DNA of 64,000 bases from Streptomyces coeruleorubidus. Lineage in GTDB: Bacteria; Actinomycetota; Actinomycetes; Streptomycetales; Streptomycetaceae. The stretch covers positions 2,976,001 to 3,040,000 of the forward strand of contig NZ_CP118527.1 in the NCBI RefSeq assembly GCF_028885415.1, read 5' to 3'. Positions within the stretch are counted from its first letter, which is position 1, and each line of letters begins with the position of its first letter. The notes beneath the pieces were generated by a model. That model did not search any database and had not been told where the DNA came from. It saw nothing but the letters and a program-made list of their open reading frames with translations. The position numbers were made by a program, and so were the translations under genes. This document shows positions 3,231 to 14,966 of the stretch, piece after piece.

Positions 3231-3327
3231 CTTGCCCCGCCCAGCCGGTGCCGGATGAGGCCGTCGTCATATCCGCCGCGTCACGGCGCCGCTACCGTTC
3301 GGAGTGGACGCACCGAACGGAGCCAGC

Positions 3328-4509
3328 ATGCCCAGCCCCAGCACGCGCGAGGTAGGTCAACGCATCGCCACGTTCCGCCGCGGCCGCCGGATGACACAGG
3401 CCGAACTCGCCCGGGCCGCTTTCGTCTCCCTTGCCACGGTGAAGGCCATTGAACGCGGCGCCCGCTCGCCGAGCGACGACACCCTCGACTCGCTCGCAGC
3501 AGCTCTCAGCGTCGACCCAAGCCACATCGTCACAGGTAGCACCCGCACCGATAGCCGCGTCCACGCAGCGATCCCCGCCATCTCAGCCGCCATCAGCGCC
3601 TACGACATCCCAACGGACACCATGCCCCGTCCACTGCCCGAGCTCGACTCCGCCGTCGGCGTGCTGGTGCAGTGGCGGCTGGGTGCCCAGTACGCGCGGA
3701 TCGCCGAGCGGGCCCCGCACCTCCTCTGCGATTCTCTCGCCGCGCTGCATCACGCCTCGGGCGCCGACCGACTCCGCGTCGCCCAGCTCCTCGCCGTAAC
3801 CGCACGGTCGGCCGATGCGGTCTCTTACAAGTTCGGGCACCACGACCTGTCTGCCCGCTTGATCGAGCTGATGCGATGGGCCGCCCAACAGACCGAGGAC
3901 CGCATCGCCCAGGCCACCGCCGCATACGTGCGCACCGAGACGTTCTTCGCTGCTCGCACCCACGCACAGGGCCTCACGGCCCTGGAGCAGGCCATCGACG
4001 CCAGCCCCAGCCCGTTGAGCCGGGTCGCGGCGGCAGCCCGCGGCGCACTGCACATGCGGGCTGCCGTGATCGCAGCCCGGGTGAGTGATGCCGACGCCGC
4101 GGCGCTTCACCTCCGCGAAGCCCACCGCCTCGGCGACTCGCTGCCGGAAGACGCCTACGGCGGCACGCAGTTCGGACCGGACACGGTGCGCGCGCACGAA
4201 GTGTCCGTAGCGGTCAGCCTGGGCCAAGAGCATCTCCAGCGAGCGCTGGACATCGCGGACGAGTGGACTCCTCCAGAGGACATGCCGGCCGAGAGACAGT
4301 CGGGATTCTGGATCGAGCTCGCTCGCGCCCAGGTCTGGGCCGGTCGCCCCGACGATGCCTTCGAGTCGCTGAAGGTGGCCAGGTCCATCGCACCCCAGCA
4401 CACCCGCGAGCACCCATGGGCGCGCGAAGCCGCTGCGACGGTGCGCCGCTTGAAGCGGTCAGACGCCGAGTCGCTGACCAGCTTCGCGGAATGGATCGGC
4501 GCCATCTGA
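3328..4509 (+). CDS. XRE-family regulator with TPR-like C-terminus
   Basis: A 393-residue DNA-binding protein. Residues 6-55 form a Cro/C1-type helix-turn-helix (QRIATFRRG, MTQAELARAA, VSLATVKAIERG). The remaining 330 residues are alpha-helical, alanine-rich and TPR-like, typical of large Streptomyces XRE regulators. I chose ATG 3328 because CGGAG lies 6 nt upstream; a GTG 24 nt earlier is less likely. The stop codon is directly followed by a perfect palindrome (4511-4529) ahead of three small genes and the graspetide cluster, which suggests it controls that operon. Such regulators are frequent beside ATP-grasp RiPP genes in Streptomyces (my recollection). The inducer is unknown. Confidence 0.8.
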   Translation: MPSPSTREVGQRIATFRRGRRMTQAELARAAFVSLATVKAIERGARSPSDDTLDSLAAALSVDPSHIVTGSTRTDSRVHAAIPAISAAISAYDIPTDTMPRPLPELDSAVGVLVQWRLGAQYARIAERAPHLLCDSLAALHHASGADRLRVAQLLAVTARSADAVSYKFGHHDLSARLIELMRWAAQQTEDRIAQATAAYVRTETFFAARTHAQGLTALEQAIDASPSPLSRVAAAARGALHMRAAVIAARVSDADAAALHLREAHRLGDSLPEDAYGGTQFGPDTVRAHEVSVAVSLGQEHLQRALDIADEWTPPEDMPAERQSGFWIELARAQVWAGRPDDAFESLKVARSIAPQHTREHPWAREAAATVRRLKRSDAESLTSFAEWIGAI

Positions 4510-4529: not shown

Positions 4530-4593
4530 TTGTGCCTCTTGTAGCGGCCCATCATCTGTCCGTAGTCAGCGAACAGGCAGATGGGAGCCGGTG

Positions 4594-4800
4594 ATGAGCA
4601 GCCGCACCGAGCCGCTGGTCAGGGTTCACGGTCCGGTGAGTATCGCCCGTCTACATGGGCGGGCTTGCTGGTACTGCGGTGCCGTCAGCCGAGCTCTTTC
4701 CCCGGCAGGCCGCGCACAGCGAAGGGCTGGCCCTACGTGGAACATCGTGTCCTGCGGATGCCACAGGGTGCCCACGCCGACTGCTGGGCAGGCAAGCTGA
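4594..4800 (+). CDS. Small CxxC protein
   Basis: A 68-residue protein with CWYC at residues 25-28 and a later CGC, suggesting a small metal-binding knuckle. It has no signal peptide. GGGAG at 4583-4587 sits 6 nt before the ATG; an in-frame GTG is 3 nt earlier. Its TGA overlaps the ATG of the next gene (TGATG), a sign of translational coupling that supports both being real. No function is known; co-location with the XRE gene suggests a shared role in the accessory operon. Confidence 0.6.
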   Translation: MSSRTEPLVRVHGPVSIARLHGRACWYCGAVSRALSPAGRAQRRAGPTWNIVSCGCHRVPTPTAGQAS

Positions 4801-5123
4801 TGACGACCGTGGAAGGTGCCGGCGCTGCGGCCCTCGCCCTGCTGCCGCTGCCGAACGTCTCCACGCTGTCGGGGTTGCAGACCGAGGGCACGATCTGCGT
4901 GTGGTGCGGCGCCAGCCTGGTCCCGTACACGGCGCGGGACCTCGGCATCCGGCCCGGTCCGAACGGGGTGACCATCTTCCCCCGCGGCTGCGGTACCTGC
5001 GTCGGAGCCAAAGCGGCTGACGTGTACAAGATCCATGTCTCGGCGTGCGGCTCGTGCCTCCGTAACAGGCCCTGCCCTGAACGCACGGGCCTGCGCCGTC
5101 TCGCATCGGAGGGCGCGTCATGA
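4800..5123 (+). CDS. Cys-rich small protein, zinc-ribbon-like
   Basis: A 107-residue protein with CVWC near residue 39, CGTC near 72 and a C-terminal cluster CGSC...C, that is three Cys pairs that could hold zinc. The start is coupled to the previous gene by TGATG, and its end overlaps the next by ATGA. The reading frame is open further upstream, but the coupled ATG at 4800 is the natural start. There are no membrane segments. Function unknown; related small Cys-rich ORFs occur in other Streptomyces accessory operons (recollection). Confidence 0.6.
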   Translation: MTTVEGAGAAALALLPLPNVSTLSGLQTEGTICVWCGASLVPYTARDLGIRPGPNGVTIFPRGCGTCVGAKAADVYKIHVSACGSCLRNRPCPERTGLRRLASEGAS

Positions 5124-5335
5124 GCCCCGTTCTCCCGCATCCCACCGATCTGACGCATCTGCAGTACGCGGGTTGGAACTGCGTCCGGTGCAACGCCTCC
5201 CTCCGTAACGGCGGAGTCAGCGTGGGCTTCTCCCGTGGCGGCGTGGGCGCTTACGACCTCGACGTCGAGGTGTACGCCTGCGGCTCCAAGTGCCCGAAAC
5301 GCCCGGGGTCGAAGCCTGAGAGGAAGAACCGGTGA
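5120..5335 (+). CDS. Third small CxxC protein of the operon
   Basis: A 71-residue basic protein with NCVRC near residue 20 and ACGSKC near residue 54. It overlaps the preceding gene by ATGA. Like its two neighbours it looks like a miniature zinc-binding protein, and pieces are alike (W/V-x-C-x-x-C-x-A-S-L occurs in this and the previous gene), so the two may be paralogues. The graspetide precursor follows 110 nt later on the same strand. Role unknown. Confidence 0.6.
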   Translation: MSPVLPHPTDLTHLQYAGWNCVRCNASLRNGGVSVGFSRGGVGAYDLDVEVYACGSKCPKRPGSKPERKNR

Positions 5336-5445: not shown

Positions 5446-5739
5446 ATGTTCGTTCACACCGACCGTCTGCCCACCAGCCCCGCGATCTCGCAGGGCCTCG
5501 TCACCGCCCGCCCATGGGGGCTCGGTCGCATGGCGCCCTACCCCACCATGGCCCCCGCTTACACCCGCGCCGAGCTGGACCCGGGCACGCAGACCGCCCG
5601 GTTCTACGACGGTGCCGGCCAGGTGCTGGAGATGGGCAAGCACGGCACCAGCACCGGTACGAGCCCGTCGACCGGCACCAGCCCGGACGGTGACGGCACG
5701 TCCCCTGACACCGACACGAGCAGCGACAGCGACCAGTGA
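5446..5739 (+). CDS. tgmA: Graspetide precursor peptide (ATP-grasp-modified RiPP)
   Basis: A 97-residue precursor. The leader (about 1-66) has the pattern of the putative ATP-grasp-modified RiPP family: RPWGLGRMAPYP at 22-33, DPGTQT at 45-50, RFYD at 52-55 and a closing MGKHGTSTG. The core (about 67-97) is almost only Thr, Ser, Gly, Pro and Asp: eight Thr and six Asp, including DGDG at 81-84. In graspetides the partner ligase joins Thr or Ser hydroxyls to Asp or Glu carboxyls, making macrolactones, and an Asp-Gly step is the favoured site for methylation-driven aspartimide formation. GGGAGAGG precedes the ATG. The stop overlaps the ligase start. Ring pattern and activity are not predictable by eye. 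Confidence 0.88.
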   Translation: MFVHTDRLPTSPAISQGLVTARPWGLGRMAPYPTMAPAYTRAELDPGTQTARFYDGAGQVLEMGKHGTSTGTSPSTGTSPDGDGTSPDTDTSSDSDQ

Positions 5740-6683
5740 GTGATCCGCGTCCGGTGTTGGTCGTCACCAGCCTGCACGACCCCACCGCCGACGTGGTGAT
5801 CGGAGAGTTGCACGACCGAGGTGTCCCGGTCGTGCGGCTCGACTCGGGGGACTTCCCCGCATCACTGTCGGTGGAGGCAGAGATCACCGAGCACGGCCTG
5901 CAGGGCAGTCTCCGCACGCCGTCGCGCACCGCGGACTTGGCGCGCGTCCGGGCCCTTTACTACCGCCGGCCGAGCGGCTTCGCGTTCCCGCACCTCGACA
6001 AGCAGGACGCACGGTTCGCCATCACCCAGGCCCGGTATGGACTCGGCGGAGTCCTGGCCTCACTGCCCGGCTGCCTCTACGTCAACCACCCGCACCGCAT
6101 CGGGGACGCCGAGTTCAAACCGGCCGGGTTGGCCGCAGCAGCAGCAGCCGGGTTCCTGGTGCCACCCACGCTCATCACCTCCAGCGCCGACGCGGCCCGG
6201 GCCTTCATCAAGGCGCACGGCTCGGTGATCTACAAGCCGCTGTACAACCCGGTGTACCGCGTCGATGGCGTCTCGTCCGTCGTCAAGGTCGCCGAGGTGT
6301 CCGCAGCGGACATCGACGACGACGTCGCGGGCACGGCGCACCTTTTCCAACAGCGCGTCGTCAAGACCGCCGACGTCCGGGTGACCGTCATCGGCGGGGA
6401 CGTCTTCTGCGTCCGTATCGACTCCGACCTCCTCGACTGGCGCACCGACTACAGCCGGCTGGCCTACACCCCGGTCGAAGCACCGCCCGGCATCCGGCCG
6501 GCGCTCCACCGCTACATGAACCGCTTCCGACTGGTCTTCGGGGCTTTCGACTTCGCTGTGGGCGAGGACGGCCGATGGTGGTTCCTGGAGTGCAACCCAA
6601 GCGGCCAGTGGCACTGGCTGGAGACCGAAACCGGCCTGCCGATGTGCGCGGCCCTGACGACCCTTCTTGAGAGGAAGACGTGA
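5736..6683 (+). CDS. tgmB: ATP-grasp RiPP maturase (graspetide ligase)
   Basis: A 315-residue ATP-grasp ligase of the MvdC/MvdD-like, SAV_5884 type that uses ATP to activate side-chain carboxylates of the precursor and form ester or amide cross-links. Visible signs: pre-ATP-grasp domain 1-115; ATP-binding Lys167 in VIYKPLYNP; DVRVTVIG at 213-220; DWRTDYSRL around 234-242; FGAFDFAV at 268-275; and the metal-binding ECNPSGQ at 285-291. GTG start within the 4-nt overlap GTGA with the precursor stop; its own stop overlaps the methyltransferase start in the same way, so the three proteins are translationally coupled. Length matches the family. Confidence 0.92.
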   Translation: MSDPRPVLVVTSLHDPTADVVIGELHDRGVPVVRLDSGDFPASLSVEAEITEHGLQGSLRTPSRTADLARVRALYYRRPSGFAFPHLDKQDARFAITQARYGLGGVLASLPGCLYVNHPHRIGDAEFKPAGLAAAAAAGFLVPPTLITSSADAARAFIKAHGSVIYKPLYNPVYRVDGVSSVVKVAEVSAADIDDDVAGTAHLFQQRVVKTADVRVTVIGGDVFCVRIDSDLLDWRTDYSRLAYTPVEAPPGIRPALHRYMNRFRLVFGAFDFAVGEDGRWWFLECNPSGQWHWLETETGLPMCAALTTLLERKT

Positions 6684-7798
6684 CCGATCAAGCACAGCTT
6701 CACCGGCAGCTGCTCGACAGGCTGACGGCGTCCGGCAGTCTCCGCACCGAGTCGTGGAAGCAGGCCGCTGAGGCCGCCCCCCGGCACGACTTCCTGCGCC
6801 ACGGGTACTTCCGGCGGGCGGTCGGCACGGAGTTCACCGCGTGGGAGCCCGTACGGGAAGGTGACGCGGGCTGGCTGGAAGGCTGCTACGCGGACGAGTC
6901 GCTGGTGACCCAGATCGCCGGCACGATCGTGCCGGAAGACATCTGCGGCCGGATCATGCGCGAGCCGACCAGCTCCAGCACGCTGCCCTCCCTCGTGCTG
7001 CGCATGCTGGAGGACCTCGAGGTCGAGGACGGGCACAGGGTGCTGGAGATCGGTACCGGCACCGGCTACTCGACCGCCGTCCTCTGCGCGCGGCTCGGCG
7101 CAGGGAACGTCACCTCGATCGAGTATGACCCGCGCGTGGCGTCGCGGGCTCGGGCCGCACTCGGCCACCTCGAGACGTACCCCACCCTCGTCACCGGCGA
7201 CGGGCTCCTCGGCCACCGAGCGGGAGCGCCGTACGACAGGGTCATCGCCACGTGCGGCGTACGTGCGGTGCCTCAGGCGTGGATCGAGCAGACCCGGCCC
7301 GGCGGCTTGATCCTGGCGACCATCTGCGGATGGCTCGGCTCCTCGGAACTCGCGCGCCTGACCGTCCATGAGGACGGCACGGCGGTCGGCCCGCTGCTGA
7401 GCGGCGGGGTGAACTTCATGCTCGCGCGCCCGCACATGCCGCCGCCGCTCGGCCTGCTCCCCGACCTCGACGACGGCAAGGAACGGGAGACCGTCACCGG
7501 CGCCGAGGTGCTGGACAACTGGTCTTCCCGGTTCGTCGTGCAGCTCGCCGCGCCGGGCGCCCAACGGCTGACGATGCAGCGGGACGGGCGCACCGAGGAC
7601 GTTCTGGTCGACATCGGCACCGGCTCATGGGCCGCGGTATTCGAGGACGGCGGCCGGTGGCGCGTCCGGCAGGGGGGACCGGAGCCCTTGTGGGACGCCG
7701 TGGAGGAGCAGTTCGGCCGCTGGTGCGCGGCCGGCGCACCGATGCTGGAGGACTTCACCGTCACCGTCACCCCGGAGGGTCAGACCATCAGCTGGTGA
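6680..7798 (+). CDS. tgmC: PIMT-like methyltransferase of graspetide cluster
   Basis: A 372-residue SAM-dependent methyltransferase homologous to protein-L-isoaspartate O-methyltransferase. TSSSTLPS near residue 97 matches the PIMT substrate-pocket segment, and VLEIGTGTGY at 121-130 is the SAM motif I, followed by the acidic IEYDP. About 140 residues beyond the PIMT fold are extra, as in the methyltransferases of ATP-grasp peptide systems. In the fuscimiditide pathway such an enzyme methylates an Asp of the already cross-linked peptide, which then cyclises to an aspartimide; the same outcome is inferred here because the core has Asp-Gly steps. Coupled to the ligase by GTGA. A hairpin at 7871-7900 ends the unit. 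Confidence 0.9.
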   Translation: MTDQAQLHRQLLDRLTASGSLRTESWKQAAEAAPRHDFLRHGYFRRAVGTEFTAWEPVREGDAGWLEGCYADESLVTQIAGTIVPEDICGRIMREPTSSSTLPSLVLRMLEDLEVEDGHRVLEIGTGTGYSTAVLCARLGAGNVTSIEYDPRVASRARAALGHLETYPTLVTGDGLLGHRAGAPYDRVIATCGVRAVPQAWIEQTRPGGLILATICGWLGSSELARLTVHEDGTAVGPLLSGGVNFMLARPHMPPPLGLLPDLDDGKERETVTGAEVLDNWSSRFVVQLAAPGAQRLTMQRDGRTEDVLVDIGTGSWAAVFEDGGRWRVRQGGPEPLWDAVEEQFGRWCAAGAPMLEDFTVTVTPEGQTISW

Positions 7799-7900: not shown

Positions 7901-7921
7901 CTGACCTGCTGACTAATCCCG

Positions 7922-7993
<72 letters not shown>

Positions 7994-11630: not shown

Positions 11631-12360
11631 TCCCGGGCGCCGTCCAGCCGGTGTCGGCCAGCTCCCCGTGGCCGGGCCGCCAGCCCTGGTCGGCCGCGAG
11701 GAGCAGGTCGGCGTCGAGCAGGGAGTCACCGGCGGCGAGGGTGATATCGGCGCCGGTGCGACGGGCGATCTCGCGCATCGCCGCGCTCTTGGTGAGCGGC
11801 TTGGGCACGGCGTAGATCTTGCGGCCCTGGAGGGACACGGTCCAGCCGCGGTTCTCCGCCCACACCGCCAGTTCCTTCACCCAGTCCTCGTTGAGCAGTT
11901 CACGCTCGACGACGAGGTAGGCGAAGAGGTCGTCGGCGACGCGGTGCTTGCGCACCCAGACCGGGTCGGCGGCCCTCAGCAGGTGCTCCTGCACCTCGGC
12001 CAGGGGCGCGCACTGGTCGGCCAGCCGCGCGGTCACCTGTGCGTGCCAGTCGGGGTCGGACACGCCGTCCACCAGGATGTGGCCGCCGTTCGCGCAGATC
12101 GCGTAGGTGGGCGCGGGGCCCGGCAGGTTGATGCGCAGGTACTGCTTGCGCGTACGGGTCGTGGTCGGCACGAACACGGCGGCGTCGCCGAGGTCGGTCA
12201 GGAGCTGGGCCGCGGTCTCCGTCATGTACGACAGCGGCTTGCTCTCGTGCACCTCCACACACAGCAGCCGGGGCGCCCGTGCGTCCGGCATGGTCAGCGC
12301 CAGAGCCGCAGCGGAGTAGATCAGGGTGCGATCGAGGTCGCTCGCGACGAGTGCGGGCAT
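11542..12360 (-). CDS. HAD hydrolase of the Ter-linked module
   Basis: A 272-residue HAD phosphatase with nucleophile motif SDLDRTLIYS at residues 7-16, a Cof/SPP-type cap in the middle and GDSLLDADLL near 218-227 as the acidic motif IV. It overlaps the phosphoribosyltransferase gene by TGATG, so the two are coupled. In actinobacterial Ter loci a HAD enzyme accompanies phosphoribosyltransferases and a CitE-like aldolase, proposed in comparative genomics to make a nucleoside-like metabolite. Here it would dephosphorylate that product. The true substrate is unknown. Confidence 0.85.
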   Translation of the reverse strand: MPALVASDLDRTLIYSAAALALTMPDARAPRLLCVEVHESKPLSYMTETAAQLLTDLGDAAVFVPTTTRTRKQYLRINLPGPAPTYAICANGGHILVDGVSDPDWHAQVTARLADQCAPLAEVQEHLLRAADPVWVRKHRVADDLFAYLVVERELLNEDWVKELAVWAENRGWTVSLQGRKIYAVPKPLTKSAAMREIARRTGADITLAAGDSLLDADLLLAADQGWRPGHGELADTGWTAPGIRALPERGVLAGERILRELAAAAGLGRFA

Positions 12361-14966
12361 CAGAGCGTCACCGCCTTGCCGTCGGCGCCGGTCGCGCCCC
12401 GGGTGTACTTGGGGTGGATCAGGCCGACGCAGGTGTAGGGCAGTTCGGCCACCTCCTCGACGGGTACGCCGCGTTGCTCGGCCAGCAGGCGTACGTGGTC
12501 GAGGTCGCTGCCCGCCCCGGCGCGTGCCAGGACCTTCCAGGGCACGCGGCGCAGCATCACCCGGGTGGTCTCGCCGACGCCGGGCTTGACGAGGTTCACG
12601 TCGTGGATGCCGTACTCCTCGCTGATGCGCTCGACGGCGGCCCAGCCCTCCCAGGTGGGCGAGCGGTCGGCGGCGAGCAGTTCCTTGGCCTGGGCGCAGG
12701 CCGCGTCCGCGACCTCGGGGAAGCGGGCGGAGACGGCGTCCAGGAAGGTCACCGAGACGTCCGCGCCGGCGAGTTCGCGGTAGAACTTCGCGCCGTGGTA
12801 GTCGTGCGGTCCGACCAGGTCCGCCCGCAGGACGGTCCGCGAGATCAGGCCGGACACGGTCGAGTTGAGGCAGGCGGAGGGGATGAGGAAGTCCTCGCGC
12901 GTGCCGTAGGTCCGTACGCAGGAGCCCGGGTCGGCCAGCACCGCGATCTCGGGACTGAAGCCGGTGATGCCGTCGGACTTCTCGAACTCCTCCAGAGCCT
13001 GGGCGAGTTCACGGGTGATGGCGCCCTTGCCGGTCCAGCCGTCGACGAAGACGACCTCCCGGGGGTCGTGGTGCCCGGCGAGCCAGCGCAGGGCGTTGGC
13101 GTCGATGCCGCGGCCGCGGACGATCGACACGGCGTAGTGCGGCAGGTCGAGACCGTGCCGGTGCCGAGCCCAGCGGCGCATCAGGATGCCGACGGGTGTC
13201 CCGGCACGGGCCAGGGAGACCAGGACGGGGCGCGGCGACCGCTCCGCGAGGACCGTCTCGGTGACCACGCCGGCCGCCTGCGCGATGCGGGCCGCCGACT
13301 CCTCCAGCGCGGCGTGGAACAGCTCCTGGTACTGCTCGCTGGGCTGGTACTCCACGGGCAGCGACTCGGCGTAGTGGGCGCCGCCGCTCTGGATCGCCTC
13401 CTCGCGCTCCTCGGTCGGCGCCTCCAGTGTCACGTCCGAGAGGTCCTGGAGCAGCCAGCCGACCTCCTCGGGCGCGTACGAGGAGAAGGCGGGGCCGCGA
13501 AGGGGCTCGGGCAGCATGGAGGGCCTTTCGAAAGGCTGCGGGGTCGCGCGGACGGGCGAGGTCTCGGGGGCGTACGACGGCACGACGGCGAGGAGGACCT
13601 GCGGCGTGTGCGCGGCGAGCTGGGCCAGCAGGCCGTCGGGCGCGTGCAGCGGGGGCGTGTCCGCGGCCGAGTCGACGACGGCGATCACCGCGTCGAAGCC
13701 GGCGCCCGCGACGTTGTAGGCGTACCGCTCGCCGGGGCCGTCGGCGGGGTCGTCGTGGGCGGGGAAGACCAGGCGGGTGCGTATCGCGTAGCCGGGGTCG
13801 TCGACGGCGAGGACGGGCGAGCGGGTGGTGGTGGAGTAGCGGACCTCGGCGTCCGTGGTCCGCTCCAGGGCCTCGGCGAGCCGCAGCGGGGCGTACATGA
13901 GCTCCTCGAAGCCCAGTACGTGCACGCGCCGGGCCCCCTGGGGCAGCGCGTCGGCGATCCGGGCCGCCATCGCGGGCAGGACGGCCTCCAGGCGCTGCCG
14001 ATGCGCGGGTGTGAACCCGTGGCGTCCGCCGTCCGGCAGGTCGTGGGGCCAGCGCAGGTCTACGCGGGTGAGGTGGGGGTGGGTGCCGACGCCGTCCGGG
14101 TGCGGGCCGACGCCCTCAAGGGGCGCGGGGAACTGCGCGACCGGCCACGACGCGCCCGCGGACGACGGAGCACCTTCCGCGGCACTCTCCGCCTCGTGCC
14201 GCGTCACCAGCTCCTGCCCCTTCGACAGCACCCCCTCGGGCAGCCGCACGGTCCCCGAAGCCGCTGCCACGAGATCCACCCGCGCGCCGATCGCGCGGGC
14301 GAACTCCTCCAGCCGGCGGGCGTCGGCAACCGACCGCATGTCCACCAGCGCCACCACGACATACCGCCGCCGCGGATACCGCTCATGAAGATCCCGGACG
14401 GTGTTCAGCACCGTGTTCCCCGTGGAGAACTCGTCGTCGACCAGGACCAGCGGCCCGTCGCCGGCCAGCAGGGCCGGATCCTCCGGCAGCAGCAGATGAG
14501 ACGTGGCGTGGGAGTGGGACTCCTCGAAGCCGCCCGCGCGGGCGACGCCGGCGACGGGGCGGCGGGTGGAGTGCAGGTAGGGGGCCAGGCCCAGGCCGTC
14601 GGCGACACAGTGGCCGAGGCCGGTCGCGGTCTCCGCGTAGCCGAGGACGACCGCGCGGCGCGCCTCGTCGGCGCCCAGCAGGTCACGCACCCGGCGGCCC
14701 AGCTCGAAGCCGTAGCCGTAGACCACGGACGGCGACTGCGGGACGTGCTTGCCGAGCACGTTCGACACCAGCAGGTGTGCCCGCTTGGGGTTGCGGCGCA
14801 GGGCCAGTCCCAGCAGGTCGGTCAGCCGGTCGTCGCCGACGAGCCCGACGCCGAGCCGCTCGGCGACCCAGCTGCCCGGCCAGACACCCTCGGCACCGCC
14901 GGCCGTCCCGGCCCGCACCCCGTCGCGCACCTGGTGGTGCACCCCCTCGTTCACTGCCTTCTCCAT
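12360..14966 (-). CDS. Fused double phosphoribosyltransferase with PELOTA-like end
   Basis: An 868-residue protein. The N-terminal half (about 40-470) is an orotate-PRTase-like domain with PRPP loop LVLVDDEFSTGNT at 173-185 and a following TRSP-type region. The second half (about 490-780) is the StiP-type PRTase_1 domain with SLARAGTPVG at 584-593 and VDGWTGKGAIT at 641-651. Residues about 785-868 match the PELOTA-like RNA-binding domain of these proteins. In many genomes these are two genes; an internal ATG (13517) with AAAGG upstream could start the second half separately. Residues 276-285 (VAQFPAPLEG) come from dispersed repeat A inserted in frame. AGGGAA precedes the ATG. Probable role: base and ribose-phosphate chemistry in the Ter stress pathway. 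Confidence 0.85.
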   Translation of the reverse strand: MEKAVNEGVHHQVRDGVRAGTAGGAEGVWPGSWVAERLGVGLVGDDRLTDLLGLALRRNPKRAHLLVSNVLGKHVPQSPSVVYGYGFELGRRVRDLLGADEARRAVVLGYAETATGLGHCVADGLGLAPYLHSTRRPVAGVARAGGFEESHSHATSHLLLPEDPALLAGDGPLVLVDDEFSTGNTVLNTVRDLHERYPRRRYVVVALVDMRSVADARRLEEFARAIGARVDLVAAASGTVRLPEGVLSKGQELVTRHEAESAAEGAPSSAGASWPVAQFPAPLEGVGPHPDGVGTHPHLTRVDLRWPHDLPDGGRHGFTPAHRQRLEAVLPAMAARIADALPQGARRVHVLGFEELMYAPLRLAEALERTTDAEVRYSTTTRSPVLAVDDPGYAIRTRLVFPAHDDPADGPGERYAYNVAGAGFDAVIAVVDSAADTPPLHAPDGLLAQLAAHTPQVLLAVVPSYAPETSPVRATPQPFERPSMLPEPLRGPAFSSYAPEEVGWLLQDLSDVTLEAPTEEREEAIQSGGAHYAESLPVEYQPSEQYQELFHAALEESAARIAQAAGVVTETVLAERSPRPVLVSLARAGTPVGILMRRWARHRHGLDLPHYAVSIVRGRGIDANALRWLAGHHDPREVVFVDGWTGKGAITRELAQALEEFEKSDGITGFSPEIAVLADPGSCVRTYGTREDFLIPSACLNSTVSGLISRTVLRADLVGPHDYHGAKFYRELAGADVSVTFLDAVSARFPEVADAACAQAKELLAADRSPTWEGWAAVERISEEYGIHDVNLVKPGVGETTRVMLRRVPWKVLARAGAGSDLDHVRLLAEQRGVPVEEVAELPYTCVGLIHPKYTRGATGADGKAVTL
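14120..14159 (+). repeat. Dispersed repeat A, copy 2, inside a gene
   Basis: Same 22-nt start as copy 1, continuing CCGGCCACGACGCGCCCGC. It lies inside the phosphoribosyltransferase gene, read from the other strand as VAQFPAPLEG in a low-complexity linker between the two conserved regions. Confidence 0.7.

Follow-up and report, generated by a model that had tools for sequence, protein, structure and literature searches.

Within the window, by which we mean the whole 64,000-nucleotide stretch of Streptomyces coeruleorubidus DNA analysed here, three genes on the forward strand encode a precursor peptide of the tgmA type (positions 5446..5739, 97 amino acids, ATG start), an ATP-grasp peptide ligase of the tgmB type (5736..6683, 315 amino acids, GTG start) that is predicted to install side-chain esters, and a PIMT-like L-aspartyl O-methyltransferase of the tgmC type with a C-terminal extension (6680..7798, 372 amino acids, GTG start). 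Both the precursor/ligase and the ligase/methyltransferase junctions are 4-nt GTGA overlaps, and the genes and their overlaps are as the original prediction had described them. The precursor matches TIGR04186 (NCBIfam; 87.5 bits against a cut-off of 25) and PF14408 (Actino_peptide, Pfam; 62.6 bits against 25), the ligase matches TIGR04187 (NCBIfam; 428.4 bits against 350) and the MvdD pre-ATP-grasp family of Pfam, and the methyltransferase matches TIGR04188 (NCBIfam; 443.2 bits against 380) and PCMT (Pfam; 92.7 bits). Because all three proteins exceed curated NCBIfam cut-offs, the gene set represents more than a chance association. The window lies above the cut-off for all three models of the NCBI tgmA/tgmB/tgmC ATP-grasp RiPP set, from which no difference was found in the features tested, and tgmA/tgmB/tgmC are annotated in five of the eight plasmid records among the matches listed (DNA identity of 71.2-79.7% over 78-82% of the query).

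The solved chains closest to the ligase are 9bou, followed by 7m4s (AMdnB), 5ig9, 5ig8 and 7mgv (CdnC), and the ECNPSGQ motif that had been reported in this enzyme is present at 6588..6608 (forward strand), where it aligns with ECNQSGQ in 9bou. In the methyltransferase, we located a GTGTG SAM-binding motif of the GXGXG type at residues 125-129 (7052..7066, forward strand) and, at residue 348 (7721..7741, forward strand), the sequence WCAAGAP, an instance of the published WXXXGXP motif of RiPP-associated PIMTs. The closest solved structure is 1dl5, a Thermotoga maritima PIMT described in the literature as bearing a similar C-terminal extension. These motifs, together with the TIGR04188 score, bear out the earlier description of PIMT motifs plus an extra C-terminal part. 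An orphan or ordinary protein-repair PIMT was considered and rejected, as the protein falls well below the cut-offs of the corresponding models (TIGR00080, 81.6 bits against 159.05; NF001453, 94.3 bits against 188) and exceeds that of TIGR04188 instead.

The precursor carries both of the leader motifs that had been named for it, RPWGLGRMAPYP at residues 22-33 (5509..5544, forward strand) and DPGTQT at residues 45-50 (5578..5595, forward strand), and both are similar in the relatives listed. Its predicted core comprises residues 66-97, HGTSTGTSPSTGTSPDGDGTSPDTDTSSDSDQ (5641..5736, forward strand), its start being set at the Lys65 site on the model of the SsfA fragment 66-97 discussed below. For residues 66-97 the calculated linear neutral monoisotopic mass is 3054.193, and the predicted [M+H]+ values are 2965.147 once five waters are lost, 2979.163 for the corresponding methyl ester and 2947.137 for the aspartimide. 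The core is laid out as a Thr arm, a loop holding the predicted modified Asp and an Asp arm. The loop, SPDGDGTSP, has nine residues and two Asp-Gly pairs: the predicted methylation and aspartimide site Asp81-Gly82 (Asp81 codon at 5686..5688, forward strand), at the same position as Asp81 of SsfA, and a second pair beginning at Asp83 (codon at 5692..5694, forward strand), a residue that is Asn83 in SsfA by comparison.

Searches of a protein database returned 89 precursor homologues at E<=1e-3 among 147 candidates, with up to 88% identity over the full length. Named relatives were found by their ligase, and the best 80 of 182 were taken with their flanks; the ligase of S. afghaniensis, 90% identical to that of the window, is among the closest of these best 80. 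Precursor, ligase and methyltransferase occur in order on one strand in 74 of the 80 named loci (best 80 of 182). Conservation of the precursor beside the ligase had been set beforehand as a test capable of refuting the prediction, and a precursor lies directly upstream of the ligase in 78 of the 80. No precursor was detected in L063 and L019, whose ligase matches start at query residues 44 and 52; no methyltransferase match was detected beside the precursor and ligase of L069 and L044, and L078 and L027 hold a methyltransferase fragment only. Across the genus, precursor matches at E<=0.001 were detected in 107 of 150 sampled genomes, and in 105 of these the match is over the cut-off.

Group 13 graspetides are a published group, also named graspimiditides (PMC13001092, PMC10787088), for which a 2026 review gives 1326 clusters in one study and 962 and 1432 in others, with four characterised products (PMC13001092). 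By the first of these counts, and by the frequency of precursor matches in the genus, the cluster studied here is ordinary for its kind. The NCBIfam and Pfam matches, the solved structures and the tgmA/B/C records therefore place it among the group 13 graspetides, and the sequence supports this feature by feature, since each tested feature of an aspartimide-type cluster is present. We hold with high confidence that the three genes form a complete operon for a group 13 graspetide (graspimiditide), whose product would carry a nested ladder of Thr-Asp esters and a methylated Asp81. Gene content, family membership, motifs, conservation and the symmetry of the arms across core classes are observed directly, and the chemistry would follow that of characterised relatives.

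The most informative of these relatives is SsfA, the precursor of the SsfA/SsfB/SsfM cluster of Streptomyces sp. F-3 (PMC10787088). According to the available part of that report, a GluC fragment 63-97 and a fragment 66-97, which we infer to be tryptic, were obtained; Asp81, which precedes Gly82 and is followed by Asn83, is modified through the action of SsfM; the peptide loses 90 Da and undergoes up to fivefold methanolysis; and its last 12 residues hold only four Asp and no Glu (PMC10787088). A fifth SsfA ester, at the C-terminal carboxylate, is a postulate only, mass spectrometry having left the ring connectivity unsettled (PMC10787088, PMC13001092). We compared the window with the published coordinates of SsfA rather than with its sequence, and the two agree in the three genes, in a C-terminus at residue 97, in E62 and K65 of the window, which fit the fragments 63-97 and 66-97, in Asp81-Gly82, and in the last 12 residues, where the window precursor also has four Asp and no Glu; they differ at residue 83, which is Asp in the window and Asn in SsfA. 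In S. thermovulgaris, a precursor with a TTG start (L015) agrees with the SsfA coordinates including Asp-Gly-Asn, and we regard it as a probable stand-in for SsfA.

Comparison of coordinates thus supports SsfA as the best fit among the characterised products with checkable coordinates; amycolimiditide and albusimiditide are known to us by description, and either could be as near. As described, both resemble the predicted product in a stem-loop of nested Thr-Asp esters, a methylated Asp-Gly in the loop and a ligase plus methyltransferase (PMC13001092, PMC13003496), and amycolimiditide differs in having four esters, that is four cross-links (PMC13003496), where four or five are predicted for the window. 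The original prediction had taken fuscimiditide of Thermobifida fusca as its model. The kinship stands, in that fuscimiditide too is made with a ligase and a methyltransferase and holds an aspartimide in a long loop (PMC12291112, PMC13001092). As the closest model, however, it was set aside, since the parts of the literature available describe a 22-residue peptide with two esters and a 10-residue loop (PMC12291112), whereas the window has four or five predicted esters and a loop of nine and matches the SsfA coordinates better among the products checked.

To compare the two arms of the hairpin across the family, we took 163 distinct cores from 193 distinct precursors (loci and protein matches), using a pattern of His, then Gly/Asn/Lys/Arg, then Thr/Lys/Ser/Arg, the last being offset -10. 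Two sequences lie outside this pattern: L030, whose core reads like a frameshift, and P0003, with Leu for His and Pro at offset -8. Three classes account for 156 of the 163 cores and seven belong to none. The window's class (128 cores) is defined by a DQ end and an Asp at the inner place, and the two others (28 cores) by a terminal Asp (offset +10) and an Asp at the inner place. Across the cores of the window's class (n=128), Thr/Ser at -0, -2, -6 and -8 stands opposite Asp at +0, +2, +6 and +8 in 511 of 512 cells, and Thr/Ser is found opposite 232 of 768 cells without an acid; when the register is slid by 1 to 3, the mirrored fraction drops to 0.26-0.75. The fit is looser in the other two classes, with Thr/Ser opposite 119 of 134 cells with an acid against 78 of 174 without, and a slid register yields 0.20 to 0.69. 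Since related sequences are not independent, we attach no probability to the arm symmetry.

The weight of the symmetry argument rests on the comparison between classes, in which other subclasses shift their spacing on both arms together. At offset 4, class HG_xD has Thr in 19/19 cores with Asp in 18/19, and the window's class has neither Thr/Ser nor Asp there, with Pro/Leu on the left and Gly/Ser on the right in 128/128. Loop length varies from 8 to 16 across cores and the arms remain constant. Mirror symmetry judged from the window core alone was discarded as evidence, as shuffling the core produced at least four mirrored pairs in 2596 of 5000 trials. Nor does a conserved Thr prove a bond, because extra Thr occur without a facing Asp, as at offset 2 of HG_xD (Thr in 16/19, Asp in 3/19).

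We propose that the ATP-grasp enzyme would bind the leader of the 97-residue precursor, activate Asp carboxylates by phosphorylation and join them to Thr hydroxyls, giving a nested hairpin ladder of T78-D88, T76-D90, T72-D94 and T70-D96. A probable fifth ester would link T68 to the C-terminal carboxylate of Q97, a placement that we suggest because of the offset-10 pattern and the five esters of SsfA. The methyltransferase would then recognise the cross-linked hairpin and methylate Asp81 in the nine-residue loop, and the methyl ester would close to an aspartimide that may hydrolyse for the most part to isoAsp. Proteins encoded elsewhere would have to remove the leader and carry out any export. 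The predicted cross-linked aspartimide peptide is supported by the features tested, at the level of sequence and with the product itself a prediction; instead of a stable aspartimide, however, the peptide may finally carry isoAsp, given that SsfA was recovered as an isoAsp/Asp mixture (PMC10787088).

The outermost rung is a tentative part of this scheme. The window's class ends at +9, yet every one of its 128 cores keeps Thr at offset -10, a place where the pattern allowed Thr, Lys, Ser or Arg. We tentatively suggest, at a little under an even chance, that throughout the class the Thr that precedes the inner Thr by ten residues (T68 in the window) is esterified to the peptide's own C-terminal carboxylate, which would replace the mirrored Asp of the sister classes. 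Ser69, conserved in 126 of 128 cores of the class, is an alternative donor for this ester. A product with four esters only, in which Thr68 is free but structurally conserved and the C-terminus is free as in amycolimiditide, appears unlikely, though it deserves weight: the four cross-links described for amycolimiditide (PMC13003496) and the unpaired conserved Thr of HG_xD are both consistent with it, but SsfA, which shares the coordinates of the window, lost 90 Da with up to fivefold methanolysis in the published account (PMC10787088), the Thr at -10 is invariant in the window's class, and the Asp-ending classes, one residue longer, oppose their terminal Asp with Thr/Ser in 28 of 28 cores. If the C-terminal closure is correct, a class-wide side-chain-to-C-terminus ester would constitute a distinct graspetide ring type, so far postulated for one peptide. 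Thr/Asp arms mirrored across subclasses suggest a place for the unproven fifth bond of SsfA, and the window offers a clean test case, its mirrored arms hinting at the ring connectivity that mass spectrometry left unsettled and its loop placing Asp at the position of the spontaneously isomerising Asn of SsfA.

Asp81 is the preferred methylation site by analogy with SsfA. Asp-Gly is present in 119 of 128 loops of the window's class and some Asp in 126 of 128, and among nine-residue loops of the class Asp-Gly lies at 81-82 in 54 of 54, with position 83 mostly Asn. The window departs from this at Asp83, where SsfA has an Asn that becomes isoAsp spontaneously (PMC10787088). It is improbable that Asp83-Gly84 is methylated in place of Asp81-Gly82, or that both are, giving a doubly modified loop; the two Asp-Gly pairs of SPDGDGTSP and the spontaneous change at Asn83 of SsfA lend this some substance, but SsfM targets Asp81 in the available account, the invariant pair at 81-82 argues against it, and a DGD reading, with its second Asp-Gly at 83-84, is a minority feature found in 7 of 128 cores.

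Three ligases in the genome that holds the window (one contig of 9,411,092 bases) score over the cut-off, as do two methyltransferases, which are accompanied by two weaker long matches. Because no window-type methyltransferase was found in the stretches surrounding the other two ligases, the window holds the only full set in its genome by this test. Those further graspetide ligases lie in L124 (G000:C1:3720500-3728500) and L125, and one is accompanied by a precursor with a different core (compare L003). The second full-length homologue of RiPP-type PIMTs (L123, 4479-5693; G000:C1 near 5510500) scores 412 bits for TIGR04188, and no window-type ligase or precursor match was found in 10 kb around it; by our reading, the ORFs beside it resemble a broken hydrolase and a transposase divided between two frames. 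That the operon, complete by sequence, is decayed or unexpressed and non-functional in this strain seems very improbable, for although the frameshift-like core of L030, the methyltransferase fragment far downstream in L027 and the stray methyltransferase copy beside transposase-like ORFs in the same genome point that way, none of the three frames is shortened, their motifs are conserved, the overlaps are tight and every ladder position is kept.

Upstream of the operon, an XRE-type helix-turn-helix protein of 401 amino acids (3304..4509, forward strand; HTH_31, 38.1 bits against a cut-off of 27) is a candidate linked regulator. We clustered the neighbours of 81 loci (the 80 named loci and the window) over up to 8 kb per side. 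Of the 81 loci, 30 have a divergent XRE-type regulator family in their flanks and 17 a histidine-kinase-like ATPase; the window's own XRE type is present in 14, counting the window itself, and a DUF5753 XRE family likewise in 14. The 4 kb upstream of the clusters often hold XRE-type proteins, which belong to three families or more; regulators within 4 kb were found upstream in 57 of 76 loci against downstream in 6 of 69, figures biased by profiles built from clusters recurring near the operon, so that we offer this enrichment as a lead only. DUF5753 regulators and histidine-kinase-like ATPases near such clusters have already been published (PMC8939145, PMC13097080), and the two XRE families other than DUF5753 are not named in the available parts of the published accounts of these clusters. 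Two small cysteine-containing ORFs with a mutual 4-nt overlap (4581-5123 and 5120-5335; 180 and 71 amino acids) lie between the regulator and the precursor, and neither has an NCBIfam or Pfam match above cut-off. They were rejected as parts of the system: among 114 loci, and leaving aside the window's own copies (L001 and L108), L006 had a match to both and L016 a match to the first alone.

The absence of a nearby transporter or protease, also predicted, holds for the 13 neighbouring window ORFs scanned with Pfam, among which no RiPP exporter or leader peptidase was found and two VTT-domain membrane proteins were. For the 30 most common neighbour clusters of the 81 loci, the Pfam search covered representatives of 13, not counting the window's genes (L045 and L029 represent one cluster), and the others were assessed by visual inspection of the first 70 residues. 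These common clusters gave no match to a peptidase family, and their sole transporter component was an ABC ATPase, which occurs in 6 of 81 loci and varies in position. Within this survey no exporter or leader protease was commonly shared near the operon, although a rarer one may occur. The window also encodes, 4.5 kb downstream on the minus strand (12360-13967), a StiP/PELOTA/TRSP-domain protein, a StiP-family 'cysteine protease' of a stress (tellurite-like) family. A DUF6087 protein of about 100 amino acids (L066, 10163-10465, and eight other loci) lies about 2.1 kb past the ligase start in eight of nine loci. Linking aspartimide RiPPs to a biological function is regarded as the bigger challenge in the review cited above (PMC13001092).

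Directly downstream of the cluster, a tRNA-Val gene (anticodon tac; 7921-7993, minus strand) has its 3' end facing the cluster. An integrated element at this tRNA is not supported by a repeat test, as a 19-base stretch from the 3' part of the gene was not found again elsewhere in the window at <=3 mismatches. In L016, L019 and L052 the same tRNA-Val follows the ligase at a distance of 1.3-1.9 kb, and tRNA genes of seven kinds occur in the flanks of 12 of the 80 named relatives.
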